Below, piece after piece: positions 2,805 through 63,296 of a stretch of 64,000 bases of DNA. Numbering within the stretch: the stretch's first letter is position 1; every line of letters starts with the position of its first letter. A program made the translations under genes and the position numbers. This DNA comes from Gossypium raimondii (Eukaryota > Streptophyta > Magnoliopsida > Malvales > Malvaceae). Location: NCBI RefSeq assembly GCF_025698545.1, contig NC_068575.1:56987980-57051979 (forward strand), in the 5' to 3' direction. The notes below the pieces were generated by a model. The model ran no database searches. It was not told where the DNA came from and worked only from the letters and a program-made list of their open reading frames with translations.

Positions 2805-3023
2805 ACACACATCTTAAAGTTCAGCCACGGAGCGTACTTTTTCTAAAACCACAGTTAGAGTTTGAATCTATGGTCAAAAGTGCGTTGAGTTAATTCATGC
2901 AATTGCAAGCTCAGCCAAGGGAAAAAAGTTATATAATCATGATTGAGCCAATAGGGTCACTGACATAAGTTATGATTTGAATCTATACCCCATCTCTCTC
3001 CTTCTCTGGCTCTGTTTTATCTC

Positions 3024-3032
3024 TATATATAG
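3024..3032 (+). promoter_or_regulatory. TATA box of HD-Zip copy 1
   Basis: TATATATAG lies about 220 bp before the ATG at 3250, in a CT-rich leader. The same element occurs at 16264-16272 and 22547-22555 ahead of the other two copies, at matching positions. Confidence 0.6.
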
Positions 3033-3249
3033 ACCCATCCTTTCCCTGTTCCACTGCACCAAAAGCAAAAAGGCTGTTAAAGCTCAAGCAATTTTCTACC
3101 CTTTATTTCTTCCGTTTTGTTTTTTCTCAGAAACCAAACACAGAAGGGAGAAAACCCAGAAAGAAAGAGGAAACAACAGAGAACTTCGATTGGTTTTGCT
3201 CTGGAGAAAGTGAAAGTTTTTGCTGGTTTTGAAAGACAAAAAAGGAGAG

Positions 3250-4555: not shown

Positions 4556-5129
4556 TTCCAATGGTTTTGGGAGCATATAACAATCAAAATATCAATTATC
4601 GTGGTTAGGACGGAGTTAACTCTGATCAGATTCCTGTTGTTTTCCAGAGCTCTGTTAAAACGTTTCCCAACAAAGGATAGCATAGGATGAAGGAAAAATC
4701 TACTAAATTGAAATCATAATATGATTTGTTCATGTCATCTTATCTCTTGGATAGTTTCAAGAAAAAAGATGCCATCAACACAAAATCTCTTGAATAGTCT
4801 CTAGGAAAAAGAAGCATTACAATGATGAAAGCAATAACTAGCCATCTGTCAGCTTCTCATGGATCACATATGGGAGGCTTTTTTACGCCACTAATTCAAA
4901 ACTAAATAAATATTTATAAGAATGGTCCAATTTGAAAAATTATGACGTAAAGGAACTAAAAATATATAATGTCGACACCTTGAAGGCTGGCACCCAAGAC
5001 AGTGTTATTATTTCTGTTGGTTGGGTTGGGGGTTAAAAAATATATACTTTAGTCTTGGCACCGTAATGTTTGGCATATATTTTTTTTATTGGTTGTCTGT
5101 ATTTGTGTGATCGTCGTTGCCAAAATAAA
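4556..5129. other. 3' flank of HD-Zip copy 1 and junction to transposon DNA
   Basis: 4556-4873 is the 3' flank shared with copies 2 and 3. After 4873 the sequence is unrelated to them, AT-rich, and contains no gene I can support before the Copia relic begins. Confidence 0.6.
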
Positions 5130-6035: not shown

Positions 6036-9000
6036 TGTAACAGCCCGTTTTCAATGAAATCAGAACAGTAGTTTCGAGACCACAAATACAAGTCTGAAAA
6101 GAAAATTATTTTAATATTATTTTATGGTCTGCGTTATGTTAGAAATGTCATATGAAAATTTTGTTAAGAAAATTTTACCGATTACATGTTTAATTGATAA
6201 AAGGACCAAATTGCATAAAATGCAAAAGTTGAGTTCTAGTAGCTATATGTAGCAAATAGCTATGGAAATCAAAGTTTGAGGTCCTTATATGGCAAATAGA
6301 CCATTAAGAGAAGTTAGTAAATAAGGATGATGATTCATCCATGGAAATTTAATTAAAGAAAAGGATGAAATTGGAAATAAGAGATATTAAAAGATGATAA
6401 TTGATTAAATGATGAAAATATCATCTTTTTCATCATCTTTCCCAATTTTTTTTTATGAAAACTTTAGCTAAGAGAAAAGAGTTCAAGCAAGCTTACTTGG
6501 CTTAATTGGGTAAGTATTCAAGTCCCGTTTTTATTAATTTTTATATTTTCGAGATCGTAATTACCTAATATAGCTATCTTGAGGATTTAATTGCAAAGTT
6601 ATTGAGGTATTAAAGTTTTGCCATGGATGAATATAGATGAATTATGAAGTTTTATGGTAGAAAATGAAAAGTTGTTGATAGATAAACAACTTTTGTTAAA
6701 GGAATTTTGATGAAAATGTGATTTAGGGATTAAATTGTAAAAGTGTAAAATTCGTCTAGGCTTGGAATAAGGATTAAATTGCATGAATTTCATTTTCCGA
6801 GCCTAGGGATGAAATTGAAATTAATTAAAAGTATAGGGGCAAAATGGTACTTTTGCCTAAGATGTAAGTTGGATTGAATTGAATATGAGATGTGTTAAAC
6901 TGATTTTAAATTCATTTATATAGATCCAAAAAGATCAAATAAAGAGTTAGATTGAGGAAAAGAAAAAGTATCGGATTAGTAGATCTTCGTATACGAGCAA
7001 GTGGCGAGGTAAGTTCGTATGTTTCATAAGCATTAAATTATACATGTTTCAATTCTTAATTGAGATAATTATGGTGAATGATTAATTATTAAATTTAATT
7101 GTGATTACAATTATTTGGAAATGTTTAACGGAGATTCGACAAAGTAAAAGTCCCGGTTGAACCTTAGGAATAGATAGGATACAAAAGTCATGGCATTAGG
7201 GTTATCGAGATTACGTGTAAGACCATATCTGGGATTTGGCATCAATATGAGAATTCGTGTAAGACCATGTCTGGGTATTGGAATCGATATGCGATTTCGT
7301 GTAAGACCATGGCTAGCATATTGACATCGATATGAGATTACATGTAAGACGATATCTGGGATATGAAATTGTTACGGTACTATGTGTACGAGATCCCCGA
7401 GTATCATTTAGTATTCCAAATGGTTCAACGAGAAAAGTGGATGAAACATGGTTATAAGTGATGGTACAACGAAAGCAAGGTATTCGTGACAGAAATTAAC
7501 AAGTAAGTGAAAGTTGAGAATAAAAGTACGATCGAGTTAAGCAAGACAGGTACGTACAGAACCTATGTGAGAATCAAATGAAAGTGAATTGGTGAGTTGA
7601 TGAGAATCGAATGAAAGTGAATTGGTGAGTTGATACTGTATCATGTATATAAAATGAGAAAGGTATGTGTTTAAATATGTTCTATACAAAAATGTGCTCA
7701 TTTGGCTATATGGAAGTATGAATTGAATACTGTATGAGAATTAAATTGATTAAACTTGTGAAAGCTAAGGTTAGCTATGTAAATGATTATATGATTGAGA
7801 ATAAGATGAAATATGATATGTGTTATGAGGACGTATAGAACTAGAAACGAAATTTTATGAAATGTATGAAAGAAATCATGAAAGTGTAAAATTTGCAATA
7901 AAATAGTTCTAGACAGCAGCAATTGTATAAATTTGAAAAATCACTAAAATTGTAGAAATCCCATTAGAGGTTGAATAAGACATTAAATTAAAACTTATTG
8001 AGTCTAGTTTCACATAGAAGAAACGGTGTAAGCAAAAGAATCTTGTATTATGAGATATTTGAAGTTTTGTGAGATAATGGTAGAATGATTTTGGAATCCC
8101 CTATTCTGACTTTCGAAAATCATTAAAAATTGTATAAAAATAATTATGAGTTATAATTTATATGATTAAAATTCTAAATGAGTCTATTTTCAAAAGAAAC
8201 AAATAGGAATATCATCTGAATCCCGTACTAAGAGATAATTTTTAGAGAAGAAGGGTCGGAACTGTTAGACAGCAGAATAGGGACGACTTTGAAGAATTAA
8301 TTGTACTTATTGGCTAAACAAAAAATTCTAAATATTTTATGGTAAGAAGACATGTGAGTCTAGTTTTCGGAAAATAAAGCGGATCTTAATTTGGAGTTCC
8401 GTAGCGCAAGATATAAATAATTTAGTGACTATGAATCGAGTAGACAGCTTGATGTGAACATGAGTAAATAGTGGAAATATGTACAATTTTGATTGTATTA
8501 TCTTGAGAAATGTTGTGAGGATTGGTAAAAACAGGGTAACAGATTACTTATTATTTACATATCAACTTACTAAGTTTTATAGCTTAGTTTCTGTTATTTT
8601 TCAATGTTAATAGTGTTTCGTAGGCTCGCTCGGGTTGGAAATCGTCAGAGATCCCACCACACTATCCAACTATGGTTTCGGTATTTAAAAGGTTTGTAAT
8701 TTTGGTTTTGTGGCATGTATAGGCTAGTTGGTTTGTTAAGTGTAAAAGTAATTTTAGCTATTGGTGCCTATATGTTTGAAATATATTGAGCCATGAGATT
8801 TGGCTTGTTTATAATGTGAGGTTTGATGTGTAGATGGCCTTATAATTGGAATGTGCTTGTGTAGGGTTGACCCTTATGGTTGGCGAATTGGCCTTGGAAA
8901 TGGCCTATTATCGCCCACGCGGCTGTTCACACGGGTGTGAGACGTCTGTTACTTAGAAAATTCTTAAAGTTTCAGAAATTTGTATGTGAAACTAGTTTAG

Positions 9001-10943: not shown

Positions 10944-13155
10944 TTTAACAACCCGTTTTTGGGTTAAATCAGAACAGCAGTTCTGAAACCACAAATCCGA
11001 AGTTAAAGTATAAATTTTATTATTATATTAAAGTTTGCATCATGATAGAATTATTAGGTGAAAATTTCGTGAAGAAATTTTATCGTTCGCATGCTTAATT
11101 TGATAAAAAAGGACTAAATCGCGTAACGTGTAAAATTTAGGTTCTATTAAAAAATGTGCCAATTTGCTATGAAATTAAAACATGAGTGGCCTTAAATGGT
11201 AATTAGACCATAATTATTTTTAGTGGACAAACTTGGACATTAATTAAGCATTATAAAGAATTATAAGTAAGGTTATTATGGTAATTAATAAAATAAACTT
11301 AAATTAAATTAAGGAAAAGAAAGACATCATCTTTCTTCTTGATTTTACTAACTGAATATTATTATCTTGGGAAGCCATTAAAGACCATCCAAGCATTCGG
11401 CCATCCTTAGTTCTCATGCATGTGAGTATTTTTCGTCCCGTTTTTAATGATTTCTATATTTTTTGAGTTGTTGTAGCTTAATCTAGCTAGCCCGTGTCTT
11501 CGATTTCAAAACTGTTAAAGATTTTGGTAGTTTCCATTGATGAGCTTATGTGTTCTTTGATGTTTAATGGTGAAATATGAATATTTGATGTTAGATTTTC
11601 ATATTTTATAAAGTGATTTTTTTAATGAAAATGCAAATTATGGATTAAATTGTAAAAAGATGAATATGTGGGGTTAAAAGTGTGAATAAATGTGAAATAT
11701 GGGCTACTAGGGGGCACTATAGTAATTCGGCCATGCATGAGTCTTGTTGAATTTTATGCATTTTGTGTATTTGTGAAATAGGGACTAAATTGTAAGAAAT
11801 GTGAAAGTTTAGGGTCAAAGTGCAAATTGGCTTAAATATGTGTTTTTGGACTGAATTGAATGATTATATGATTAAATGAGTTAATTTTGAATACATATAG
11901 ATCAAGAAAAGAGGAATCCGAAATGAGATTGGGGGAAAGACAAAATTATCGAGTAATCGATCTGATTCGTCAATTTCGAGCACGAGGTAAGTTCGTAATG
12001 TGATTTCATTATACTGTATGTTAAATGCTTTGATTATGCCTAAACTGTGATTTCGATATTTTCATTAATGTATGAATTGTAAATATGACTTTACGGATAT
12101 ACTCGAAGATAGAATCGACAAGCTAAAAATCTTGGTTGAAGCTTAAGAATAGAATTGGATACTTGTGAAATGTTATAAGTTGATATACCGATTTGACTTC
12201 GGGCCATGATATTAGAACTTCGGGTGCGATTTATTCCAATTTGGCTTCGGGCCATGCATATCGGATAAATTAGTTTCGGGCCATGATAATAGTTCTTTGG
12301 ATAAGTTACCTTGATTTGGCTACGGGCCATGGTATAGGTACTTATCATATGAGACATTTGAGTATCTGATTTCTATTCCGAATGGTTCAACAAGTAAATG
12401 AATGAGATGATTGAGAAAAAGGTTAGTACGAGACGATACAGGTACATACAAAACCTATTCGAGTATTTAATAGAGAAAGATAATGCAATGGTATTTGATC
12501 ATGTTTTAAGACATGAGAAAGGTTTGTTGTAATTGTATATATGGTGATGTTATGTACAATTAGTTGAATTGCATGTATTTGATGTATTGAATTATTCACT
12601 TACGAGCTTACTAAGTTATGAAGCTTACTTCGTGTTATTTTCTTATATTTTATAGAGAATAGCTGGGATCCAAAATTCGTTGAGAACATCATCGCGCTAT
12701 CGGACATCTAAGTTGGTACTTTTGAATTATATATCTATGGTATATGGCATGTATAAGCTAGTGTCATCTTGGTATGTTTTGAGTTATAATATTAGCCATG
12801 AGGTTTGGCATATAAAGGTTGGTGTGTATTTGGCCATATGAATTGGTTGTTTAAGTGTTGAGAAAATGCATGTTTGAACTTAAGATGAATTGATGGTTAT
12901 AGTAAGTTAAATTGATATACTTTTGAGTTAGTTTGATACTAAAATTGAAATGAAATGAACAAAGTTTATTAGATAACTTTTATATAGTATTATGAATGTT
13001 GTTGATCAATTTGATAAGTAAATGTTTTAGGCATGATTTAAATATGTTTGAATGTGAAAATGTGTTGGTTTCCATATTAATTGTAAATTGTCCGATAGGT
13101 CCACTAATGCTCCATAACCCTGTTCCGGTGATGGACACGGGTTAGGGGTGTTACA
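10944..13155 (+). mobile_element. Second gypsy-type solo LTR (2.2 kb) with target duplication
   Basis: The element begins at a slightly changed TGTAACAACCCG end and closes with GGGTTAGGGGTGTTACA at 13155. The flanks TTTCT (10939-10943) and TTTCC (13156-13160) agree at 4 of 5 positions, as expected for a 5-bp retrotransposon target duplication. There is no internal coding region. An imprecise array of GGGCCAT-bearing units lies at about 12195-12335. It belongs to the same broad family as 6036-9185 but is shorter and diverged. Age: moderate, judged from the imperfect flanks. Confidence 0.8.
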
Positions 13156-16020: not shown

Positions 16021-16263
16021 ATGCACACATCTTCAAAGTTTAGCGACGGAGCGAACTTTTTCTAAAACCACAGTTGGAGTTCGAATCTATGGTCAAAAGA
16101 AAGTAAGAGGTGTTAAACTACCCTTGAGTTAATTCATGTAATTGCAAGCTCAGCCAACAGAAAAAAAAGTATATAACCATGATTGAGCCAATAGGGTCAC
16201 TGACATAAGTTATGATTTGAATCTATACCCCATCTCTCTCTTTCTCTGGCTCTGTTTTATCTT

Positions 16264-16272
16264 TATATATAA
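16264..16272 (+). promoter_or_regulatory. TATA box of HD-Zip copy 2
   Basis: TATATATAA lies about 210 bp before the ATG at 16480 and aligns with the TATA boxes of the other copies. Confidence 0.6.
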
Positions 16273-16479
16273 TCCCATCATTTCCCAGTTCCACTGCACC
16301 AAAAGCAAAAAGGCTGTTAAAGCTCAAGCCGTTTTCTACCCTTTCATTTATTCCGTTTTACTTTTTCTCAGAAACCAAACACACAAGGGAGAAAACCCAG
16401 AAAGGAAGAGGAAAAAATAGAGAACTTCGATTGGTTCTGCTCTGGGGAAAGTGGAAGTTTTTAAGACAAAAAAGGAGAG

Positions 16480-17745
16480 ATGGATGATAAAGATGACGGT
16501 TTGGGGTTAAGTTTGAGCTTGGGATGTGCTCAGAATCAGCCCTCGTTGAAGCTAAATCTCATGCCTTTAGCTTCACCTTGCATGCAAAACCTTCAGCAGA
16601 GGAACATTTGGAATGAACTGTTTCAGTCTTCTGGTATGTTTTTCTCCCCTTTTCTTTCACCAGTTTACGGGGTTGTCATGTTTCATTCCTGTTTCTATTC
16701 CTTAATATGTTGAGATCTGATGTTTTATCGTCTCTTTCCATCTTTGGATTGCATTGCATATCTCTTGCGTTCATCACTGTGATTTGACCAACACAACGAA
16801 ATCAGTTTTTGTGATTGACCGTATGCATGCAGATGGACAGTTGGAAACAAGATCAGTTGCTGGTGGAATTGATGTGAACCAGGCACCGGCCTTGGCTGAA
16901 TGCGAGGAAGAAGATGGGGTCTCCTCGCCTAACAGCACCGTTTCAAGCATAGGTGGAAAGAGAAACGAGAGAGACCCTGTGTGCGATGAAACCGAGGCTG
17001 AGAGACCGTCTTGCTCTCGTTCCAGTGACGATGAAGATGGCGGGGGTGCTGGTGACGATGCCTCGAGGAAGAAGCTTAGGCTTTCAAAGGAACAGTCGTT
17101 GGTGCTTGAAGAAACCTTCAAGGAACATAGCACCCTTAATCCGGTTAGTTAACGATTAGTCTTTAAAACGTCAGGTAGTTTAACAATTTGATATTTGAAG
17201 TGAAATGTTGGAGTTGTGTTTTATGATACAGAAACAAAAGTTGGCACTGGCAATGCAATTGAATCTGAGGCCTAGGCAAGTGGAGGTTTGGTTCCAGAAC
17301 AGAAGAGCAAGGTGAGTTTGTTATGTTTTATTTCTTCAATTAATTGTTGAGGGTATTCTGAAGGGAAATCAAAACTCAGCATTGTTTTTCTTCATTGGTG
17401 CAAACGTTCAGGACAAAATTGAAGCAGACGGAAGTTGACTGTGAGTATCTAAAAAGATGTTGCGACAATCTAACAGAGGAAAACAGAAGGCTTCAGAAGG
17501 AAGTGCAAGAGCTTAGAGCATTAAAACTCTCCCCACAGCTCTACACCCACATCAACCCTCCCACAACCCTCACCATGTGCCCTTCTTGCGAACGTGTGGC
17601 TATTGCTTCTTCTTCGTCTTCATCCTTGGCTGCTTCCTCTGCCCCTAACTCAAAGCATCAAAGGCCGGTACCCGCTAGTTCTTGGGCTGCATTGCCATTG
17701 CCTGTTACTCATCGACCCTTCAATGCTCCTGCTTCTAGACCATAA
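16480..17745 (+). CDS. HAT3: HD-Zip class II transcription factor, HAT3-like, copy 2
   Basis: Exons are 16480-16633, 16833-17143, 17232-17311 and 17412-17745, all with GT-AG borders, giving 292 residues without interruption. It has the same EAR motif, homeodomain, leucine zipper and CPSCE motif as copy 1. It keeps the canonical TKLK after the homeodomain, so of the three copies it has the most conserved DNA-binding and zipper junction. Residue 2 is Asp where the others have Gly, and CPSCERVA is followed by Ile. Its role is inferred from HAT3/ATHB4: a nuclear repressor that binds CAATNATTG-type sites as a dimer. Promoter and introns closely match the other copies, so the copies may be co-expressed. 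Confidence 0.93.
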
Positions 17746-18957
17746 TTCCAATGGTTTTGGGAGTATATAACTATCAAAATATCAATTATCGTGGTTAGGA
17801 CGGAGTTAACTCTGATCAGATTCCTGTTGTTTTCCAGAGCTCTGTTAAAGCGTTTCCCAACAAAGGATAGCATAGGATGAAGGAAAAATCTACTAAATTG
17901 AAATCATAATATGATTTGTTCATGTCATCTAATCTCTTGGATAGTTTCTAGAAAAGAGATGCCATCAACACCAGATCTCTTGAATAGTCTCTAGGAAAAA
18001 GAAGCATTACAATGATGAAAGCAATGACTAGCTCTCTGTCAGCTTCTCATGGATCACATATGGGACGATCTCCGGTTGGGAAATCCTCTCTATACAAGTA
18101 TCTGGAAAATAACGTAACAATCATGACCTTGTTAGTCATTTGCAATGTCAAATCCACAAGTACGGAGCATATTCGATTTGGTCATTCTAGAAAAAAACTA
18201 TCAGGTAATGATTAGTCAACAGAAGGAGAGGCTAGTTAGTAATCGTAGTTTCAACATTTTTTTATAGCCAGCAAGCCCCAATGAACAACTATCCAATTCA
18301 CCGTCTGCAAAGCCAAAATCCAAAATAGAAAAAAAGTTTGTATTTCTGTGATTATATAAAAGGAAATCTGTTTTTGTTTTTTTGTCAAATCTTTGCATTG
18401 GTTGTCCTGGGTCATGGGGGCAGAGCCCTCGAGTGCAATTTTAAGAGCTTCAACGGGTTCATCCCAATTTAATTAAGGTTTCTTTTTATTTCCTTCCAAC
18501 GACGTCGTCCCCCCACTTTGACCCAAAAGGATCACCCTTTTTTCTCTCCTGGAGCGACAATGCAACGTAGGCCAATTTGGTCATTTAACTCAACGGCCAT
18601 GACATTTATTACAATAGTTATTACTTTTTAATTCCTGATGTTTGTTTGTGTTTTGAAATAAATGCAAGCCAGCTGTTTTTCTAAAAATAATAATAATTTA
18701 ACTTTACTCTCTTTGCAACCGGACCATTATTTTCCTTTCTTTTGTTTTTCTAAAAATAATAATAATTTAACTTTACTCTCTTTGCAACCGGACCATTATT
18801 TTCCTTGCTTTCAAAGTCTTCCTTCCTTTCCTCAATCAATCAAAGTATCGTTTAATACATCTTCCCCCCCCCCCCCCCTCATTTTCACTTCACTTACCAA
18901 AAGAAGAAGAGAAACCCAACAAACAAGCTGAAGCAGAGAAGCTTTTGCACTTTATTA
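17746..18957. other. Spacer and promoter between HD-Zip copy 2 and DUF761 copy A
   Basis: No gene is supported. 17746-17885 is the HD-Zip 3' flank. About 17885-18490 is unique to this block. From about 18495 the sequence matches the promoter of the other DUF761 copy at about 24228. A C-homopolymer lies near 18866-18880, in the presumed leader. Confidence 0.5.
18675..18806. repeat. Tandem duplication (69-bp period) in the DUF761 promoter
   Basis: Units start at 18675 and 18744 and share GTTTTTCTAAAAATAATAA and CTTTGCAACCGGACCATTAT. A more diverged form of the same duplication occurs at about 24405-24530 in the other block, so it predates the block duplication. Confidence 0.85.
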
Positions 18958-20624
18958 ATGGCGGATTCAGATCCTCCCTTCACAAGGGCCAACAGCATAC
19001 ACAGAAACAATGATAGTAATAACTACGCGCTCTTTCTTGGTAAGTTGCTGTTTTTTGCTTTCTTACTCATTGCAATCCCATTGTTCCCTTCCCAACCTCC
19101 AGATTTCATAAACCAAACAGTACTCAACAAGTTTTGGGAACTTCTTCATCTTATGTTCATTGGCATTGCTGTTTCTTATGGCTTGTTCGGTCGTAGATAT
19201 ATTGATAATGGTAATCTTGATGATTCTCAATCGCATGCTTCTGGAATGTTCCATGTTTCGTCTATATTTGAAGATGGTTTTGATCATTCCATGCACTGTA
19301 GTGGACAGGGTAAAGCTGGATGTTTTAATGTTAAAAATGGTAGCTTTGACAACCCTTACGAGGAAAATGTTGTTCAAGCTTGGAGTTCAAAGTATGTCCA
19401 AGGGGAACCCACGGTTGTGCTGGCTCAACCACATTGTGGTGTCGAAAAGTATGGTGAATTGATTTCGTTTAGAGATGATAAACCTTTGGGGTTGCCTGTT
19501 AGGAGTTTAAAATCCAGGGCTATGAGTCCTGAATTTGGCAATGGATCGAGTGATTCTTCGGGTCCGAGTGTGATGGATTCATCGGATGGTTCCGATAAGA
19601 GTGAAAATGGGAGCTTTAGTGATTTGACTCGCGAAAATTTGGAGGGGAAGTCGAACAAGAGTGGTGCTTTGGGTTCTCCGATGCCTTGGCGTTGGAGATC
19701 AGGAAGGGTGAGACAACGATTTGACGGTGGTAGTGTCACACGCCCTTCTCATTTCAGGCCTCTCTCAGTTGACGAATCTCAATTTCAATCACTCAAATCA
19801 CGGTCTTTACACTCCCAACTCGCTTCCCAATCACATTCACCGAGTAGCTTGTCTCCCTCGCATCCCAGTTCTTCAGAACCACCAAAATCCAAAATGATTG
19901 AATCCCTGAAGGAAAGGAATCCCAGCCAGTCTTTTCCTCTGCCTTCACCATTAAAAAGACGGAAGCCAGTAATTGCATCGCATTCTCGGCAGTATAGTGA
20001 TGGCTCCTTATTGGGGACCCGCTCAAGGAAATGCTTTGAGGATGAATGGGAGGAATTCTGTGACAGCAAAAAGGATGATGGTTCATCAACCAACAAAGAA
20101 AGGGTCTCAAGTTATCCCTTGAAATTTGATGCAAAGCCTATAGCTCCTCCAAGGCTTCCTCAAGAGGGAAGTCTGTTCGAACCTTTAGAGGCAGTGGCAT
20201 TACCATAGTTGGGTCTGGGGATGCCGGAGAGAAGCAGGAAAATCATACAAAGGGATGTGATGAAATTGAAGAGGTTGAGGGTTACAAAGGTGGAAGTGAC
20301 CCAAAATTAGGAGATTGTAATCCCTCGGTTGTGTTCAACAGGCAGAATCTTGGAGGTAATGCTTACATGCCAAACCCAACATATTCCAGAAACCGGAACC
20401 AAGAGTTTGCGGAGAATTCCGAGTCGGAGAGAGAGGATGAAGATTTTGGAGAAAGGTCAGATGAAGCAACCATGTCCGGAGCTACGAGTGTAGCAGGAAG
20501 TGATACTTATGAGGTTGATAGGAAGGCTGGTGAGTTTATAGCCAAGTTCAGAGAGCAGATTAGGCTTCAAAGAACAACATCAATTGAAACACTAAAAGGG
20601 TTCAACGTGAATTTTTTAGAGTGA
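18958..20624 (+). pseudogene. DUF4408/DUF761 protein gene, copy A, truncated by a frameshift
   Basis: The open frame runs 18958-20208 (416 residues), against 555 in copy B at 24681-26348. The two agree closely until about 20146, where copy A has CTCC and copy B CTCCC: one C is missing. Copy A then ends about 60 bases later. The remaining coding sequence, including the C-terminal DUF761 motif, stays readable in another frame to 20624. The N-terminus keeps two hydrophobic segments (about residues 24-43 and 59-77, DUF4408 type). The truncated form could still be made and inserted in a membrane, but it lacks the DUF761 end. The gene is intronless. Function is unknown; related proteins are often called cotton fibre-expressed proteins. 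An assembly error at the C run is possible. Confidence 0.8.
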
Positions 20625-20735
20625 AAGTATTTGGTGGCTGTAAATTTCTAATAGAAGAGTTATATCACTCGTCACTCTTAGGAAGTTGAGGATTCTTCAT
20701 TCTCGTAGTCCTAGCGTGGTGACCTTAATATTTGT

Positions 20736-22388: not shown

Positions 22389-22546
22389 GGTGTTGAACTT
22401 GCGTTAAGTTAATTCATGCAATTGCAAGCTCAGCCAAGAGAAAAGGGTTATATAATCATGATTGAGCCAATAGGGTCACTGACATAAGTTATGATTTGAA
22501 TCTATATAAGTCATGATTGAGCCAATTGCAAGCTCTGTTTTATCTC

Positions 22547-22555
22547 TATATATAA
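22547..22555 (+). promoter_or_regulatory. TATA box of HD-Zip copy 3
   Basis: TATATATAA lies about 210 bp before the ATG at 22766, in the same place as in the other two copies. Transcription may therefore persist although the coding region is interrupted. Confidence 0.55.
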
Positions 22556-22765
22556 GTCCCACCCTTTCCCTGTCCCACTGCACCAAAAGCAAAAAGGCTG
22601 CTAAAGCTCAAGCCATTTTCTACCCTTTCTTTTCTTCCGCTTTGCTTTTTCTCAGAAACCAAACACACAAGGAAGAAAACCCAGAAAGGAAGAGGAAAAA
22701 ACAGAGAACTTTGATTGGTTCTGCTCTGGGGAAAGTGGAAGTTTTTAAGACAAAAAAAAGGAGAG

Positions 22766-24027
22766 ATGGGTGATAAAGATGACGGTTTGGGGTTAAGTTT
22801 GAGCTTGGGATGTGCTCAGAATCAGCCCTCGTTGAAGCTAAATCTCATGCCTTTAGCTTTACCTTCCATGCAAAATCTTCAGCAGAGGAACATTTGGAAT
22901 GAACTGTTTCAGTCTTCTGGTATGTTTTTCTCCCCTTTTCTTTCACCAGTTTACGGGGTTGTCATGTTTCATTCCTGTTTCTATTCCTTAATATGTTGAG
23001 ATCTGATGTTTTATCGTCGCTTTCCATCATTGGATTGCATTGCATATCTCTTACATTCATCACTGTGATTTGACCAACACAACGAAATGAGTTTTGTGAT
23101 TGACCGTATGCATGCAGATGGACAGTTGGAAACAAGATCAGTTGCTGGTGGAATTGATGTGAACAAGGCACCGGCCTTGGCTGAATGCGAGGAAGATGGG
23201 GTTTCCTCGCCTAACAGCACCGTTTCAAGCATAGGTGGGAAGAGAAACGGGAGAGACCCTGTGTGCGATGAAACCGAGGCTGAGACACCGTCTTGCTCTC
23301 GTTCCAGTGACGATGAAGATGGCGGGGGTGCTGGTGACGATGCCTCGAGGAAGAAGCTTAGGCTTTCAAAGGAACAGTAGTTGGTGCTTGATGAAACCTT
23401 CAAGGAACATAGCACCCTTAATCCGGTTAGTTAACGATTAGTCTTTAAAACGTCAGGTAGTTTAACAATTTGATATTTGAAGTGAAATGTTGGAGTTGTG
23501 TTTTATGATACAGAAGCAAAAGTTGGCACTGGCAATGCAATTGAATCTGAGGCCTAGGCAAGTGGAGATTTGGTTCCAGAACAGAAGAGCAAGGTAAGTT
23601 TGTTATGTTTTATTTCTTCAATTAATTGTTGAGGGTATTCCGAAGGGAAATGAAAACTCAGCATTGTTTTTCTTCATTGGTGCAAACGTTCAGGAAAAGG
23701 TTGAAGCAAACGGAAGTTGACTGTGAGTATCTAAAAAGATGTTGCGACAATCTAACAGAGGAAAGCAGAAGGCTTCAGAAGGAAGTGCAAGAACTTCGAG
23801 CATTAAAACTCTCCCCACAGCTATACACCCACATCAACCCTCCCACAACCCTCACCATGTGCCCTTCTTGTGAACGTGTGGCCGTTGCTTCTTCTTCGTC
23901 CTCATCCTTGGCTGCTTCCTCTGCCCCTAACTCAAAGCATCAAAGGCCGGTACCCGCTAGTTCTTGGGCTGCATTGCCATTGCCTGTTACTCATCGACCC
24001 TTAAATGCCCCTGCTTCTAGACCATAA
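22766..24027 (+). pseudogene. HAT3: HD-Zip class II, HAT3-like, copy 3, with premature stop in the homeodomain
   Basis: Exons correspond to 22766-22919, 23118-23425, 23514-23593 and 23694-24027, and the splice borders are intact. One codon is missing in the acidic run of exon 2, without a frame change. At 23378-23380 a Ser codon (TCG in copies 1 and 2) is TAG, stopping translation at codon 139 in the first helix of the homeodomain. The product would keep the EAR motif but no DNA-binding domain or zipper. Other differences: VEVWF is VEIWF, and TKLK is KRLK. The open, otherwise well-kept reading frame implies the stop is recent. A short EAR-bearing peptide is conceivable but unproven. Confidence 0.88.
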
Positions 24028-24680
24028 TTCCAATGGTTTTGGGAGCATATAACAATCAAAATATCAATTGTCGTGGTTAGGACGGAGTTAAGTCTGATCA
24101 GATTCCTGTTGTTTTCCAGAGATCTGTCAAAGCGTTTCCCAACAAAGGATAGCATAGGATGAAGGACAAATCTAAAAAGGTGGGTTTGGACGGGAGATAA
24201 TGCGCTTTTTAGCTTATTTTTTGTGGTTAGGACGTCGTCCCATCCTTTGACCCTAAAGGACCACCCTTTTTTCCCTCACGGAGCGACAATGCAACGTCGG
24301 CCAATTTGGTCATTTAACTCAACGGCCATGACATAATTACGATGGTTATTACTTTTTAATTCCTGTTGTTTGTTTGTGTTTTTAAAAAAATGCAAGCCAG
24401 CTGTTTTTCTAAGAAAAAAAAAACTTTACTCTCTTTGCAACCGGATCATTAGTTTCCTTGCTTTTGTTTTTCTAAAAAAATAAAAAAATTCAACTTTACT
24501 CTCTTTGCAACCGGACCATTATTTTCCTTGATTTCAAAGTCTTCCTTTCTTCCATCAATCAAAGTATAGTTTAATACATCTTCAGACCTCCCCCCCCCCC
24601 CCCATTTTCACTTCACTTACCAAAAGAAGAAGAGAAACCCAACAAACAAGCTGAAGCGGAGAAGCTTCTGTACTTTATTA

Positions 24681-26348
24681 ATGGCGGATTCAGATCCTCC
24701 CTTCACAAGGGCCAACAACATACACAGAAACAATGATAGTAATAACTACGCGCTCTTTCTTGGTAAGTTGCTGTTTTTTGCTTTCTTACTCATTGCAATC
24801 CCATTGTTCCCTTCCCAACCTCCAGATTTCATAAACCAAACAGTACTCAACAAGTTTTGGGAACTTCTTCATCTTATGTTCATTGGCATTGCTGTTTCTT
24901 ATGGCTTGTTCGGTCGTAGATATATTGATAATGGTAATCTTGATGATTCTCACTCGCATGCTTCTGGAATGTTCCATGTTTCGTCTATATTTGAAGATGG
25001 TTTTGATCATTCCATGCACTGTAGTGGACAGGGTAAAGCTGGATGTTGTAATGTTAAAAATAGTAGCTTTGACAGCCCTTACGAGGAAAATGTTGTTCAA
25101 GCTTGGAGTTCAAAGTATGTCCAAGTGGAACCCACGGTTGTGCTGGCTCAACCACATTGTGGTGTCGAAAAGTATGGTGAATTGATTTCGTTTAGAGATG
25201 ATAAACCTTTGGGGTTGCCTGTTAGGAGTTTAAAATCCAGGGTTTTGAGTCCTGAATTTGGCAATGGATCGAGTGATTCTTCGGGTCCGAGTGCGATGGA
25301 TTCATCGGATGGTTCCGATAAGAGCGAAAATGGGAGCTTTAGTGATTTGACTCGCGAAAATTTGGAGGGGAAGTCGAACAAGAGTGGTGCTTTGGGTTCT
25401 CCGAAGCCTTGGCGTTGGAGATCAGGAAGGATGAGACAACGGTTTGACGGTGGTAGTGTCACACGCCCTTCTCATTTCAGGCCTCTCTCAGTTGACGAAT
25501 CTCAATTTCAATCACTCAAATCACGGTCTTTACACTCCCAACTCGCTTCCCAATCACATTCACCGAGTAGCTTGTCTCCCTCGCATCCCAGTTCTTCAGA
25601 ACCACCAAAATCCAAAATGATTGAATCCCTGAAGGAAAGGAATCCCAGCCAGTCTTTTCCTCTGCCTTCACCATTAAAAAGGCGGAAGCCAGTAATTGCA
25701 TCGCATTCTCGGCAGTATAGTGATGGCTCCTTATTGGGGACCCGCTCAAGGAAATGCTTTGAGGATGAATGGGAGGAATTCTGTGACAGCAAAAAGGATG
25801 ATGGTTCATCAACCAACAAAGAAAGGGTCTCAAGTTATCCCTTGAAATTTGATGCAAAGCCTATAGCTCCCTCCAAGGCTTCCTCAAGAGGGAAGTCTGT
25901 TCGAACCTTTAGAGGCAGTGGCATTACCATAGTTGGGTCTGGGGATGCCGGAGAGAAGCAGGAAAATCATACAAAGGGATGTGATGAAATTGAAGAGGTT
26001 GAGGGTTACAAAGGTGGAAGTGACCCAAAATTAGGAGATTGTAATCCCTCGGTTGTGTTCAACAGGCAGAATCTTGGAGGTAATGCTTACATGCCAAACC
26101 CAACATATTCCAGAAACCGGAACCAAGAGTTTGCGGAGAATTCCGAGTCGGAGAGAGAGGATGAAGATTTTGGAGAAAGGTCAGATGAAGCAACCATGTC
26201 CGGAACTACGAGTGTAGCAGGAAGTGATACTTATGAGGTTGATAGGAAGGCTGGTGAGTTTATAGCCAAGTTCAGAGAGCAGATTAGGCTTCAAAGAACA
26301 ACATCAATTGAAACACTAAAAGGGTTCAACGTGAATTTTTTAGAGTGA
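24681..26348 (+). CDS. DUF4408/DUF761 domain protein, copy B, full length
   Basis: A single exon encodes 555 residues. Hydrophobic segments at about 24-43 and 59-77, in a region of DUF4408 type, suggest membrane anchoring near the N-terminus. The middle (about 180-420) is rich in Ser, Pro and basic residues and probably disordered. The C-terminus, from EVDRKAGEFIAKFREQIRLQ on, fits the DUF761 motif, in which D..A..FI..F..Q is conserved. No enzymatic role is known. The start was chosen because it matches copy A and follows a purine-rich leader; a C-homopolymer lies about 80 bp upstream. This copy keeps the C-terminal domain that copy A has lost, while the HD-Zip gene beside it is broken. Confidence 0.85.
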   Translation: MADSDPPFTRANNIHRNNDSNNYALFLGKLLFFAFLLIAIPLFPSQPPDFINQTVLNKFWELLHLMFIGIAVSYGLFGRRYIDNGNLDDSHSHASGMFHVSSIFEDGFDHSMHCSGQGKAGCCNVKNSSFDSPYEENVVQAWSSKYVQVEPTVVLAQPHCGVEKYGELISFRDDKPLGLPVRSLKSRVLSPEFGNGSSDSSGPSAMDSSDGSDKSENGSFSDLTRENLEGKSNKSGALGSPKPWRWRSGRMRQRFDGGSVTRPSHFRPLSVDESQFQSLKSRSLHSQLASQSHSPSSLSPSHPSSSEPPKSKMIESLKERNPSQSFPLPSPLKRRKPVIASHSRQYSDGSLLGTRSRKCFEDEWEEFCDSKKDDGSSTNKERVSSYPLKFDAKPIAPSKASSRGKSVRTFRGSGITIVGSGDAGEKQENHTKGCDEIEEVEGYKGGSDPKLGDCNPSVVFNRQNLGGNAYMPNPTYSRNRNQEFAENSESEREDEDFGERSDEATMSGTTSVAGSDTYEVDRKAGEFIAKFREQIRLQRTTSIETLKGFNVNFLE

Positions 26349-26720
26349 AAGTATTTGGTGGCTGTAAATTTCTAATAGAAGAGTTATATCGCTCGTCACT
26401 CTTAGGAAGTTGAGGATTCTTCATCCTCGTAGTCCTAGCGTAGTGACCTTAATATTATTGTCTGATACTTTTTTTTTTCAAATTTAACCATTATGAATTG
26501 AAATAATAACGAATAATCTAATGCAAATCATATATAATTATCTGGTACGTGCACTATGTTTGTTACAAGTGGTGCATCCCATTTTTTATTTTAAATATAA
26601 TTGTTGCTTCTTTTTAAGCAGAATAAAATTTTATAAATTGAAATATACATTATTTTTTAAATACTATGAGTGACATATTACATTCTTTCCATATTTGTTT
26701 GGTATAAATAATGCTTTATT

Positions 26721-56271: not shown

Positions 56272-58785
56272 TGTAACACCTCTAACCCTTATCCTTCACC
56301 GGAACAAGGTTACAAAGTATTACCGGACTTTTCAGATCAATTATGAACATTGCATATGTAACACCCCTAACCCGTGTCTGTCGCCAGATTGGGGTTATGA
56401 GGCATTACCAGACTTAATGTGGCCCTGAATTCTTCGGCCCCGTATTTTCTAATACACGGATAGTGTTATCGAGCCAAAATTCAACTCACTCAGCATCATC
56501 ATTAACTGTGGCCCTGAATTCTTCGGCCTCGTATTTTCTAATTTTATTAACATGGGGCTTATTAAATCTCATCGGATCAATCATCGGAGGTACCACAGGT
56601 ATCAAAGATGGATTATTCTAGGGTGGGGGTTGTTGAACAGTCGGATTAGTTCGGATATACTGAGTAAACCAATCTTTCATCATTTGATAGAAGGCTTGTT
56701 TAGCCCCCCTCATGGCTACTCGAGGTAGGCCGAGAATCAACTGGCATTGTCCCTTGCGCAGGAACAGGCGCTATACTTTCAACATCATTTGCTATGGCTC
56801 GATCGGGATCCATGTACTATACAAAAACACATTTTCATTAGTCAGAAGTCATCAGACTATCATAGTATAAACTATAGCATGTATAGCTAGACTCGCATGC
56901 GCTACGTTAGTCATAGAATCGACTAAACCATAACTCTGATACCAATAAAATGTAACACCCCTAACTTGTGTCCATCGCCGGATTGGGGTTACGAGGCATT
57001 ACCAGACTTAATGCCTATTTTTTTTCTAACAAAAAAAAAACAACTTATATAAAATGAAATAAACCCAAATATACCAAATTTGCATGCTTAATATTTAAAC
57101 CAAATACATATACCAATAATTTACTATTAATTTATATACTTAAGAAATTTACTTCCAATTAACATTAAAAAACTAGTTATAATCTAGAACTAAATAAATA
57201 AGATCTAGAGTAACATACTCACATCAAAGCACAAATCATACCTTAATAAATTTATTCAATTCATTTTAAGAATATAGTCATAATATTAGGACAATTAAAC
57301 ATGCCTTAAAGTTATACAAGATATATATGTATACATGTTTAAACATGGTTTGATGTTCTTAGATGAATGCGTCATTAACCATTTCATATTACAAACAAAT
57401 TTATTTCATAAAATAAATTATACAATTTACTATAATTATTAAAATGATCCGTCCACAATCAATGATAATATAGACATATATTTAATGGTTCCATCTGTAA
57501 AATAAAACGAATATAAATATGATTATATTAAAATTAGATGACCAAACCAATTTATCCTACTTATAACCAAATGTTCACCCAAGCATAGCTAAATTTAATC
57601 TACTAAATAATCGAATCAATGTGGTCCAACTATTACCAATTCAAATTGCATTATATGCTTATAATAAAACCAACCTTACTAACCAAATTATCTATCAAAT
57701 TCCAATGCATATACAACTTTTCATGAATTTGTTTAAAACTTATAATTTAATTGACCATTTTTTTATGCATGCACATACTTGCTCATAATTAAATCACTTA
57801 ATGCATACCGTAAAATTATATGCTATAAACAAATATCAAATTTATATCCATCGGCAAACTCATTAATTTAACAACATATTCATATAAACTTTCATTTAAA
57901 TCCAACTCTCACATTTAAACATACCATCTTCAAATTTCATATCCAAACCACAAATCCAGATCAATACACAAACAAGCATATAAACATTCATTCACCCTAA
58001 TAGTAATACTTAAGTAACTCATCATTGACATCTAAAAATACACTTCCATTTATAGTTCATATTATATATTCACTTTACTACTATTCCAACATGTCACATA
58101 TAACTTCCACACATATTTACCACTATCCATAAAATGCCAAACCTGAATCAAAATATGTATAAACCACCATTCATCCAAAATCGAACACAACAAGCTAATT
58201 AAGCCATTTTCGCATGGCTTAAATATATATACACATTCGAATTTTAAGCAAACTTCAAAGCTAGTCTATACATGCCATAATCCCAAAATAATTTTCAATT
58301 TATAAGATACCGTAATTATTTGATAGTGTGATGAGCTTTACTGATGAATTCCCGAGCTCGTAACAACCTCCAAAAATCTATAAAACAAAGATAAAAAAAA
58401 ATACAAAGTAAGCTAACTTAGCTTAGTAAGTCTTTAGCATAACATAAAAATATATATAAATCATATAATTCCTTTGATAATTTTACGAAGCCGAATAAAC
58501 ATTATACAACAACTACCAAACAATCATTAATCTCAAGACATTTTAATTATAATTATTTAATAATCTTTCAAACTTATACATATCAATCGCATAAGGCCGA
58601 ATTTACTTAATATATACTTACACACATAAATATCTTTTATTTTATAATTAATCAATGTACTTACCTAGTCACCGAATAAGATATGATATAACACATACTT
58701 GGTCATTATACCTTTACAATTCTATTTGATATCACATTGTCATAGAATTCACCAGGCACATATCTTGAAATGATACACCGGCACA

Positions 58786-58895
58786 AAGCCTGCTAGGCTT
58801 AAAACCTGATTTAATACATCGGCATGAAGCCTGCTAGACATAAAGTCTGAAATATTTCACCGACATCAAGCCTGCTAGGCACATAGAGCCTGAAT
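58786..58895 (-). repeat. Three 41-bp tandem units with small variable stems
   Basis: Units start with AAGCCTGCTAG at 58786, 58827 and 58868, an exact 41-bp period. After the shared part each has a short inverted repeat: AGG/CCT, AGAC/GTCT and AGGC/GCCT. It lies inside the 56951-60361 LTR. Confidence 0.75.
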
Positions 58896-59108
58896 ATCTT
58901 GGATACGAAGTTGATCTTTCACATAATACATTATAAGAAATTTCTAAATGTTCTTTAAGTTTCGTATAAAACTTTTCAATTATCGTATCTCAACAAAATC
59001 GAATTCATACCCAAATCTTCTTAGTAAGCATACTTTCGGCTAACATAAATATATATAATTCACATAATTACATTCAGCATATAAATCTCAAACATATATT
59101 CGGCTAAA

Positions 59109-59114
<6 letters not shown>

Positions 59115-59143
<29 letters not shown>
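59115..59143. repeat. AT dinucleotide microsatellite
   Basis: An uninterrupted (AT)n run of about 14 units inside the LTR. Expected to vary in length. Confidence 0.9.
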
Positions 59144-59146
<3 letters not shown>

Positions 59147-61521
59147 TATAAAATTCATTTCAACTTATAGTACTCAAAACATACCTTGGCTCACACACAT
59201 ATATATATCTCATACTTTTAGTTTTAACTTATAGAATTCAAATATATATATTCGGCTATCATATACCTACAACTCCTTCACTTATTTTCAGCTTATAAAA
59301 CTTATATGTAAATACTAATTTTTTTTATAAAGTTTATTTGCTAATAGACTTACCTCGGACGGTGATAAACCGGAACGAAACGATTAATCGACGACTTTAG
59401 TTTTCCCCCGATCCAAGTCTGATTGCTTTAATTTTTGATCTAAACATATTCAAATTGAACCCATTCAATCATAATTTCATTCAATTTAATCCAAAAACAC
59501 ATAAATGGGCAATTTATCATTTTGCCCCTGATATTTTACATTTTTATAATTTAGTCCAACTTGTACAAAACACAAAATATTCCAAATTAACCACACTATA
59601 GCTTGGCCGAATGTTCCCTATACTCATATAAGTCCATGCATGTCATTTATTTCACATTTTAGTCCCTCAATTTAATATTTTTACAATTTAACTCAAAATA
59701 ATTAAATTCATCAAAAATTCAAAAACAAAACATTATAATCTTTCACATATCTTTAATATTTCATCATCAACCACTAAAACTACAAGCTATCATCAATGAA
59801 AATTCACAAAATAATCATCAAATTCAAAAATTAAGGCATGGGTTTTGTAGTATTCAAAGCAACGCTCACAAAAACGTAAAAATTATCAAAAACCAAAGCA
59901 AAACATACCTCAATTGAATAAGCACACAGCCGAATCCCTAACTTATTTTTCTATTTCGGCAAGAACAAAGTTTTCATGCATGAATATTTTGTTTTTATTT
60001 TATTTAACATAAGTTATTTCATGTTTTACCATTATAACCTTATAAAACAATATATAACTATTATATATTAATGTCAATGTCGTCCACTAATATTAGCTAT
60101 GGCATAATTTCAAAATAAATGCATCATATTATAAAACAAGTTCAATTAGGCATTCACACATTTAACTATCAAATTTTCATTTTACGCGATTAAGCCATTT
60201 TCTTTAATCGGTCATTCAAACGATAAAATTTAAATACGAAAATTTTACACAATCAAATTCACACATTATAAACACACAAAATAATATTAAAATACTTTTC
60301 CAACTCGGATTGTGGTCCTAAAACCACTATGTCTGATTAGGGTCGAAATCGGGCTGTCACAGTATAACATTTAAAATACATATCAAAAACCAATCATAAA
60401 TCACTCATATTCTCCCTTGTATGAGCCCTCAATGCCCAAAATACACGTTAAAAGTAAATCGAGACTAAACCGGAAACTTAGAATTTTTTTCCAAAATTCC
60501 AAAATGTTCCTTAGGTGCAGGGGACACGTCCGTGTGGCTCACACGGCCAAGAGACATGCCCGTGTCTTAAGCCGTGTCGGCATTCGATGTGAGGCACACG
60601 GCCGTGTCCCAGCTCGTGTCCATACTCGTGTAACACTCTGACTTGGATCACATGGCCAAGCTACATGCTAGTGTGCTAGGTCGTGTGAAAATACTTGGGC
60701 ATTTTGTTTCTCAATTTTAAAGATGCAGGGGACACATAGCCACACCACACGCCCATGTGCTAGACCGTGTGCCGCACGCGGCTAAGACACACGCCCATGC
60801 CTCTGCTCGTGTGGACAAAAATAGGCCTTTTCAAGGCCATTTTTCTCACCCAATCTTGATTTCAACCTAAACATCTCAAATTTCATACTTATAAGCCACA
60901 ACAATGCCTTCAAAACAACCAATTCCTAGCTCTAATATTTTCATATTATCACATTTATCCTAATATTCTAATTTACCACATTAGTCAATTCCCTTATATA
61001 CCTATAAGTCATCCATCAACTAACTACACCAAACACGTATATCAAACATGATTAAACCATACATATATAAGTTGATTGGGAATTTAAACAAAATGTAATT
61101 CTTAAAATTTACACAAACCAATCCAACCCTATACATGCCATATAAACATTAATATGCGTTGTAAAAACTACCGGAACAAGTTGGATAGTGTGGCTTACTG
61201 TGTTAATATGATCTCCCGACCTCACATTAATCTACAAGAACATTAAATAACACAACTAAGCTTAATGAAGCTTAGTAAGTTCGATAGGTTAAACATAAAT
61301 CTTACCGAACTTAATATAAAAAATTAAATAGTAAATTATTTATGCACTCTCCATTTCAATCACAACAGAAATTGATGAACACACTTCTTTCAAATCAAAT
61401 TCAATAATAACAATAAATCTTTCAATTTCAATATCATAAGTCATTTACTAAATCTTACCGAATAAGAGAATGGCTTAAGGATATGGGTACATCATTTTTA
61501 GAAGCTCGAAAACTGAACAGA

Positions 61522-61640
61522 AGCACACAAGTGCTAAATAAAAACCCATAATGGTTGAACGGAAGCTCATAAGAGCTGAACGGAAACCCATTAGGGTTGA
61601 ACTGAAACTCATATGAGTTAAACAGAAGCTCGCGAGAGTT
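61522..61640 (-). repeat. Six-unit hairpin array with exact 21-bp period
   Basis: Unit starts are 61522, 61543, 61564, 61585, 61606 and 61627. Each unit has a stem of 4-5 bp, a 4-nt loop (6 in the second) and a spacer of about 7 bases such as GAACGGA. Stems in order: AGCAC/GTGCT, AACC/GGTT, AGCTC/GAGCT, AACCC/GGGTT, AACTC/GAGTT, AGCTC/GAGTT (the last with one G-T pair). The stem sequence changes while pairing stays. Confidence 0.9.
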
Positions 61641-62370
61641 AAACGAAAAGTAAACATGAAAGTTCGCAACAAATGCTGAACCTCAGTTTACTTGGGTAAT
61701 TTTGCTGTAAATTCTTCCTTTGCTGTCTTTCGCCACAGAACGATTGTACTCAATCCCGCGTTTCATTTGTTTTGAACACTCAATTCAATTTCATAATTTC
61801 CATAATATTTTTCTTTCAATAATAGATATGAATACATACATAATATCATTCATCAATTTAATATATAAATATTAAATTTTAACCATACGAACTTACCTGG
61901 GTTCAATTGTAAGATTTGTAGTAGTTTAGGGACTATAATGCTAATTTCCTTTTTTTCACGAGTATCTATGGGCTCATGATCTAAAATATAAAATTACTCA
62001 TTCATTAGCATATATTTCAGTTTCTATTAACTTTACAATTAATACCCTCAATTTTGAAATTATACAATTACCTCAACTTTAACAACTTTTGCAATTTAGC
62101 CCTTATTAATTAGTCTATCAAATGAACTAATTTTTCTCAATTGGCAATTTATATAAATATTCTAGTCTATCTTATAGCCATTGATACATAGAAATTTAAT
62201 ACCAAACCTTAATTGTTTTAATTCTTCATAATTTAGTCCTAAAATCAATATCTAACAAAATTAAAGCTCTAAATCCATGTTATTTCATCAAAAATATCCA
62301 GTATTCATCAATGGTAACTTTCAAAACTTCCAATAAAATAAAAAACTAATGAAATAGCTAGTTGGACCTA

Positions 62371-63294
62371 TGTAATACCACCTACCCATATTCGTCGCCG
62401 AAACAGGGTATGAGGCATTACCAAATTTTACCGAATAAAATTTTCACAAAATCCCCAAATTTTTTTTAATTCAATATAACCCCTTTTACAAGTATCTAAT
62501 CTTCCCTGCAATTTTAAACCGAGACCAATCCAACACAACCAATCAATTTCAACATATTTTCAAGATAGATTTAACGTATTCATCAGATAACCTCATCACA
62601 TACTAAAAACAAAATTTGTTAGCCATACCAATGGCTAACCATACATTCATTTCACATTAACATGTACTTTACTAGCTTATACATGCCATTGATTTCCAAA
62701 ATAAAGTTTCTTTATATACCGAGATCTTGAGGTTGATAGTGTGATACATCTCTGACTGAATCTGACGTCCGAGCTCTTAACACTACAAAACAGGGGAAAA
62801 AGAAATAGGGTAAGCACTTTGTGCTTAGTAGGTTCATGTAACAAGAATTATACTTACCTAATATTTTCAATACAATGCAATAAACATTCATACACTCATT
62901 CCATACATTATTCCCCTATCATGCACAAACTCAACATTCAAATTAGGCCAACAATTTCCATGTATCAATAATTTATACCATGATTGATGAGCTCATCAAT
63001 TCCATGATTTCCATTTCCTTATTATTTTTCCATATTTATCCCGTTGAACTTCTCAGAATTTCGATGGATTTTCAGGGGTACACCTAAGTGTACAAATCCG
63101 GGTCCGTCAATTCATATTCATTTGCGCACATTTCCATTTCAGAGAGCACACTCCCGCGAACCTCATGCTTACAGCGGGATTACCAGTCCAGGCTAAATCC
63201 CCTGCAACGACAATTACTCTAATGAGCTTGGATCTGAATTACCAGTCCACGCTAAATTCAGACCCTAATTCAGATTACCCGTCTGGGCTAAATC
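62371..63294 (-). mobile_element. LTR fragment, minus orientation, interrupted by another LTR
   Basis: The end TGTAATACCACCTACCC at 62371, followed by GCCG..CAGGGTATGAGGCATTACC, matches the end region of the other LTRs. It continues to a hairpin array at 63176-63296, where a further LTR begins. Its remainder lies beyond the window or is lost. Fossil without coding part. Confidence 0.65.
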
Positions 63295-63296
63295 TG
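63176..63296 (-). repeat. Three hairpins with a conserved 14-nt loop and different stems
   Basis: 63176-63201: stem GGGATT/AATCCC. 63233-63262: stem TCTGAATT/AATTCAGA. 63271-63296: stem CAGATT/AATCTG. Each loop is 14 bases of the form ACC(A/C)GTC(C/T)..GCTA. A further perfect stem, GTACAC/GTGTAC with loop CTAA, lies at 63078-63093. Confidence 0.9.

Follow-up and report, generated by a model that had tools for sequence, protein, structure and literature searches.

What keeps the two arms of a hairpin complementary when their sequence differs from one repeat unit to the next? This question is raised by an array of six hairpins in the window (the whole stretch of 64,000 nucleotides of Gossypium raimondii DNA that was analysed), for which the original prediction proposed that pairing is kept while sequence changes, either as in a structured RNA or as when template switching copies one arm onto the other. 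Tandem repeats of long terminal repeats (LTRs) are usually taken for junk or for the seed of a satellite. Arrays with co-changing arms, which occupy the same LTR region in a number of unrelated versions, would instead represent either a rapidly evolving RNA signal in plant retroelements or the trace of hairpin-templated copying during reverse transcription. Both readings are testable, and one genome offers thousands of natural variants (4,142 exact matches for one kind of hairpin).

Results

The array in the window

The six predicted units were confirmed from the sequence, with the stem arms as first described and with starts exactly 21 bp apart (61520, 61541, 61562, 61583, 61604 and 61625); the 21-bp array was also recovered by TRF. 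In the plus orientation of the window, the arms are AGCAC/GTGCT in unit 1, AACCC/TGGTT (4 bp) in unit 2, AGCTC/GAGCT in unit 3, AACCC/GGGTT in unit 4 and AACTC/GAGTT in unit 5, and unit 6 is indeed the one-arm intermediate that had been announced, AGCTC/GAGTT with G-T at pair 2. The end hairpin, decayed in the window copy (Table 1), reads AGCC-TTCG-GGCT in the sense of other copies, and the stem adjoining the array, formed by AAGTAAAC and GTTTACTT, is also present in the sister subfamily F5.

Compared with dinucleotide shuffles, the array folds with a z value of -4.4 for the minus strand and -6.8 for the plus strand, and of -5.2 when the minus strand is folded as DNA; in each of these three tests 0 of 200 shuffles fold as well. 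In the window copy it is the plus (antisense) strand that folds better than the minus strand. The best fold of each strand keeps several hairpins, but units 2 and 4 pair with one another. Array windows rank best or second-best for folding in the three copies of the family that were tested, on both strands. A second folding peak of the LTR lies sense-downstream of the array, towards the repeated CACACG/CGTGTG words found sense-downstream of it at 60600-60840 of the window. Within the window, no Rfam model matched at gathering score and the tRNA search found none.

Table 1. Features of the arrays and of their surroundings in the window
Feature	Position	Strand	Basis or remark
Truncated F4 LTR copy with array	60362..62370, ends approximate	-	similarity to many fetched copies starts/stops there
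Six-unit 21-bp hairpin array (F4)	61520..61645	-	folding, TRF, unit spacing; arms at +2..+6 and +11..+15 per unit
Decayed end hairpin U0 (F4)	61503..61514	-	3/4 pairs in window copy; by reading
Stem adjoining array, AAGTAAAC (61648-61655) with GTTTACTT (61686-61693)	61648..61693	-	by reading
5' splice-site-like AGGTAAGT, F4, sense-upstream of array	61891..61898	-	
Branch-like CTTACTAAG, F4, sense-downstream of array	61271..61279	-	
3' splice-site-like TTGTAG, F4	61232..61237	-	
Putative F4 intron, 665 bp, array inside	61896-61232	-	prediction only
F1 AGGTAAGT, ~190 bp before array	7007..7014	+	
F1 LTR hairpin array, decayed copy, ~42-bp units (CCAT...TGG...ATGG kind)	7207..7370	+	TRF, reading, pattern search
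F2 LTR, AGGTAAGT (11985-11992) to TTATAG (12650-12655)	11985..12655	+	
F3, AGGTAAGT (59355-59348) to TTTTATAG (ends 58378), array between	58378..59355	-	
F3 LTR hairpin array, 41-bp unit, arms AGGC/GCCT and AGAC/GTCT	58770..58900	-	TRF, pattern search
F6 hairpins, arms CTGAATT/AATTCAG and GGGATT/AATCCC, 14-base loop between; extra unit at truncated edge	63176..63296	-	
F6 LTR fragment	63296 to about 62371	-	

The F4 family

The array belongs to a truncated copy of an LTR family that we call F4, and LTR-like ends of other elements abut this fragment on both sides. Genome searches covered the 750.8-Mb assembly (281 contigs). A 301-base query gave 43 matches, 40 of the 1,081 first-look candidates being scored, and two patterns, each taken from a different part of the LTR and allowed at most 3 mismatches, were found at 204 and 235 places. 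A repeat of up to ~2.9 kb is common to most of thirty fetched loci; among ten copies whose edges were inspected, all start with TGTA and six end with TTACA.

In locus L052 an integrase-end/chromodomain-like frame is followed by a purine tract and then by the LTR start, and the polypurine tract GGGGGAGAGT precedes the LTR start TGTAACA in L004 and L010, with a similar arrangement in L052; because of this order in other copies, the sense of F4 is the reverse of the window plus strand. Locus L111, situated between two LTR matches, encodes RVP_2 (1.3e-29), RVT_1 (1e-19) and RT_RNaseH_2 (3.5e-27) on the same strand, 7 of its 8 pieces giving a match in two broken protease-RT-RNase H series in succession. 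In L052, SH3_Tf2-1 was detected (7e-19), together with a Chromo match of 23.6 bits, under the Pfam cut-off of 25.1 (E 4.8e-05). The F4 family is of the Ty3/gypsy type and probably a chromovirus, for which we take Tekay/Del to be the expected clade. Two pairs of same-strand LTR matches are probably elements with both LTRs, one 6.3 kb apart (G000:C5:19933625 and 19939909) and the other 8.9 kb apart, with L111 inside (G000:C2:26744951 and 26753853).

Unit types and pairing across F4 copies

The F4 set comprises 111 loci, of which L111 is internal; 109 of the 110 others were anchored and 106 are distinct. Those found by matches spanning array units lean to intact units, the others having been found by the stretch beside the array. 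The copies hold 0 to 13 units, as counted by a hairpin finder that included the end unit in some of them. The unit spacing is 21 in 511 of 599 steps and 20 in 70 of them, and the other hairpin arrays are spaced otherwise, so that the proposed equality of the period with two helical turns is not supported.

Four unit types recur in these copies (window plus orientation), AGCAC/GTGCT, AACCC/GGGTT, AGCTC/GAGCT and AACTC/GAGTT, beside a short end unit, AGCC/GGCT. A pattern that left open the two variable positions of both arms had 520 exact matches in the genome and its reversed control had 0. Among the matches listed of these 520 (contigs C1-C3), 90 of 100 are fully paired and 190 of 200 cells are paired, the shuffle mean being 87 and the maximum 117. 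These row shuffles take no account of the kinship between rows and are not a phylogenetic null; the real evidence is therefore the set of distinct matched unit types, and at least three two-sided changes are required to join the four of them.

The picture is different inside a given type or position. The test by position took in the first, penultimate and last units, the 379 middle units being left out, and counted 3 double changes vs 2.7 expected in the last unit (n=104), 1 vs 0.45 in the penultimate (n=86) and 18 vs 3.9 in the first (n=87). The excess in the first unit is mostly due to 10 copies in which pair 4 changed from A-T to T-A; in the six of these copies that were inspected the first unit has the loop of the last unit, and the excess is probably the exchange of whole unit types. 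By type, 665 units gave 15 double changes vs 11.0 expected, 9 of them compensated, a count in which two of the 15 are end units mistaken for type A and in which typing by arms can mask the changes that turn one type into another. The sole excess among 20 pair tests concerns the loop-closing pair of AGCTC/GAGCT, with 7 double changes vs 2.6 (p 0.008 uncorrected), two of the seven sitting in one copy.

The coupling of the F4 arms is thus a coupling between unit types, and within types or fixed positions the arms change near-independently, with two exceptions. The claim that pairing is kept while sequence changes stands between unit types and in the other LTR families described below; it mostly fails within one type or position, where the coupling in other copies was, the two local exceptions apart, largely no greater than expected, the sign by which the original prediction would recognise a chance pattern. 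In old copies there is little to show that arms are repaired as they decay, so that the coupling arose mostly while lineages were active.

Hairpin arrays in other LTR families

The LTRs of F1/F5, F3 and F6, in the window or in fetched loci, carry hairpin arrays that are unrelated in sequence and whose arms also change together. Arm-shuffle tests covered F4, F1/F5 and F6, and for F3 the joint change of the arms was read from the matches. Units are commonly 20-21 bp apart in F4, 33-35 bp in F5, 41 bp in F3 and 54-59 bp in F6 (F3 and F6 by reading).

The F5 subfamily, sampled in 12 hand-picked loci, retains at most one F4 unit and the end unit. Just upstream in the same leader it has about 7 hairpins of the form CCATNNN-TGG-NNNATGG, with arms AAC/GTT, GGT/ACC and AGC/GCT. 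All three variable pairs are complementary in 62 of 86 hairpins, a count that includes one locus with a duplicated stretch. In L082 there seem to be two successive copies of the F5 array, with 13 hairpins in all and several variants occurring more than once, which may reflect a tandem duplication inside the leader. With the arms left open, the F1/F5 pattern had the 4,142 exact genome matches mentioned above; among those listed, all on contig C1, 79 of 100 pair in full and represent six arm types, and 277 of 300 cells are paired (shuffle mean 181, maximum 211). Nine arm types occur two or more times among these listed matches, and permuting them reached the observed pairing in 48 of 362,880 orders.

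For F3, the pattern with at most 1 mismatch had 1,413 genome matches, with two arm types and with exact intermediates numbering 3 and 4 genome-wide. The F6 pattern had 849 genome matches; among those listed, 299 of 400 cells are paired (shuffle mean 218, maximum 252) and just 23 of 100 rows are paired at every one of the four positions, since the main type has G-G as its outermost pair. The fold of the F1 array in its single window copy is not significant; the window copies of F1 and F2 gave no fold signal at their repeats and that of F3 a weak one. The TTCGG repeats of F2 were rejected as a hairpin family, with 24 matches vs 78 for the reversed control and no fold peak at the repeats.

One-arm intermediates and strand bias

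Single-arm pairs, counted on the sense strand, gave 79 G.U vs 107 A.C in F4 (p 0.047, in the direction opposite to that of a sense RNA), 47 vs 38 in F1, 3 vs 4 in F3 and 15 vs 14 in F6. F5 alone favours the sense strand, with 15 G.U vs 2 A.C, in a sample where one locus is duplicated and part of the pairs stand in a CTG context. No consistent G.U strand bias was found across F4, F1, F3, F6 and F5, and no G.U pair was found in the main paired arm types, which would be explained by a one-step copying of arm to arm during reverse transcription. In the 4,142-match set of F1, the exact one-arm intermediates number 47 and 38 genome-wide; the two paired states account for 44 and 15 rows in the first 100 of these matches.

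Splice-like signals around the arrays

The sequence AGGTAAGT lies sense-upstream of the repeats in F1, F2, F3 and F4 (7007, 11985, 59355 and 61898), and these four sites are among the 7 that the window contains on both strands. Sense-downstream, F2, F3 and F4 present CTTACTAAG, then a T-rich stretch, then TAG; F1 has CTTACTAAG only at 8566, and in F6 a similar block follows the hairpins (by reading). Further copies of AGGTAAGT at 62859-62852 (-) and 58666-58659 (-) are near LTR 3' splice-like blocks, off the usual donor position.

In 74 F4 copies, both dinucleotides of the putative intron rank high in conservation for their base, the donor GT with 3 of 81 for G and 29 of 149 for T and the acceptor AG with 13 of 111 for A and 8 of 80 for G. 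GGTAAGT is intact in 52 of the 74 copies. The donor stretch is about the 51st of 536 nine-base windows by conservation, a ranking whose top windows include the stretch used to find the copies. The DNA similarity of F1 with F2, and that of F2 with F3, ends at most 30 bp from the donor. The arrays of F3 and F4 thus sit within a stretch that resembles an intron of the LTR leader, as predicted from these signals, with putative junctions at 61896/61232 in F4 and 59353/58378 in F3.

Discussion

Hairpins, covariation between their units and splice-like signals around them are present in F4 and recur in several LTR families; the transcription, the splicing and the role of the arrays are what we infer. 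In the model that we tentatively favour, the arrays would be a rapidly evolving structure carried by the unspliced RNA of the element, acting in packaging, dimerisation or export. The palindromic hairpin units occupy the leader part of the LTR, between the 5' splice-like signal and the branch-like, T-rich and TAG signals; from this position, splicing would eliminate the array, and only unspliced RNA would retain it. There the hairpins would form a multivalent cis-acting structure for which pairing matters more than sequence. The sister LTR families follow the same design with an unrelated sequence, their arms differing between units yet complementary. Retroviral packaging signals mark unspliced RNA, and the packaging and dimerisation signals of retroviruses are placed downstream of the splice donor. 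That rapidly replaced hairpin arrays of a leader intron single out genomic RNA left unspliced to be packaged or dimerised, selection keeping the pairing and each family having its own hairpin alphabet, is a proposal that we regard as doubtful. The lack of a consistent G.U sense bias, the better antisense fold of the window copy and the weak or absent folds of F1-F3 in the window speak against an RNA function, as do the variable number of units, the pairing between units in the best folds and the incomplete pairing of F6.

Could the arms have been copied one onto the other by reverse transcription itself? This is nearly as likely as RNA function. It is a real possibility that the growing strand folds back during reverse transcription, or at some other stage in the replication of active lineages, and that one arm then serves as template for the other without any selection. 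New variants would thereby arise in both arms together, and slippage would also expand the repeats, no function being needed. Arm copying is the main rival owing to the scarcity of one-arm intermediates and to the lack of a consistent strand bias among G.U pairs. It also agrees with the frequency of both paired states in F1 and F3, with main paired arm types devoid of G.U and with a fluid number of units. Alone, however, it leaves unexplained why the arrays sit between similar splice-like signals in several families. Moreover, matched double changes in the old copies are not clearly in excess overall (15 vs 11.0, with one local 7 vs 2.6), and arm copying is therefore not evident in chromosomal replication.

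It is unlikely that the units are palindromes at the DNA level, that is, binding sites or cruciforms which would regulate transcription or chromatin from the LTR without a role in RNA. The array folds equally well when taken as the antisense strand or as DNA, and the lack of a consistent G.U strand bias points the same way; arms that differ between units while remaining complementary are, however, ill-suited to one sequence-specific dimeric binder, and the array follows the donor and is probably part of what is transcribed. Since the spacing differs among F4, F5, F3 and F6, there is no common helical phase either. As for a chance pattern in six decaying tandem units, six units are few and the arms of old copies decay mostly independently, but the genome-wide counts already speak against it, with a number of paired cells among the F4 matches listed (190 of 200) far above the shuffle maximum (117) and the same property in other arrays, and it is hardly credible.

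Among known systems, tandem repeats have been described in the expanded non-coding regions of plant Ty3/gypsy elements (PMC6317226, in passages of that source). The cotton arrays share with them the tandem arrangement and the location in non-coding DNA of a Ty3/gypsy element; as far as those passages go, they differ in lying inside the LTR between splice-like signals and in being made of hairpin units whose arms co-vary between units, and the word "hairpin" has 0 occurrences in the main text of PMC6317226. The packaging and dimerisation signals of retroviruses, according to the portions consulted of PMC8096270 and PMC5874298, are likewise structured and partly palindromic RNA of the genomic transcript, unlike which the cotton arrays consist of many tandem units in changing number and are known here from sequence alone. 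In the intron-containing plant LTR elements Ogre and EVADE, the element RNA is spliced in part of the transcripts (PMC12786077, from excerpts of the source); compared with what these excerpts describe, the intron proposed for cotton, predicted from sequence, would lie within the leader of the LTR. Retroelements with non-coding tandem repeats and retroviruses with a structured leader are therefore known, whereas our searches of the open-licence literature turned up no description of hairpin arrays that co-vary in more than one LTR family, or of LTR introns of these families.

Elsewhere in the window, long direct repeats of 92-97% identity are found at 2806-4875, 16024-18065 and 22400-24174. A further direct-repeat pair of 92-97% identity, 18501-20732 and 24231-26456, contains ORFs of 416 aa (18958-20208) and 555 aa (24681-26348); this pair and its companions look like a local segmental duplication.
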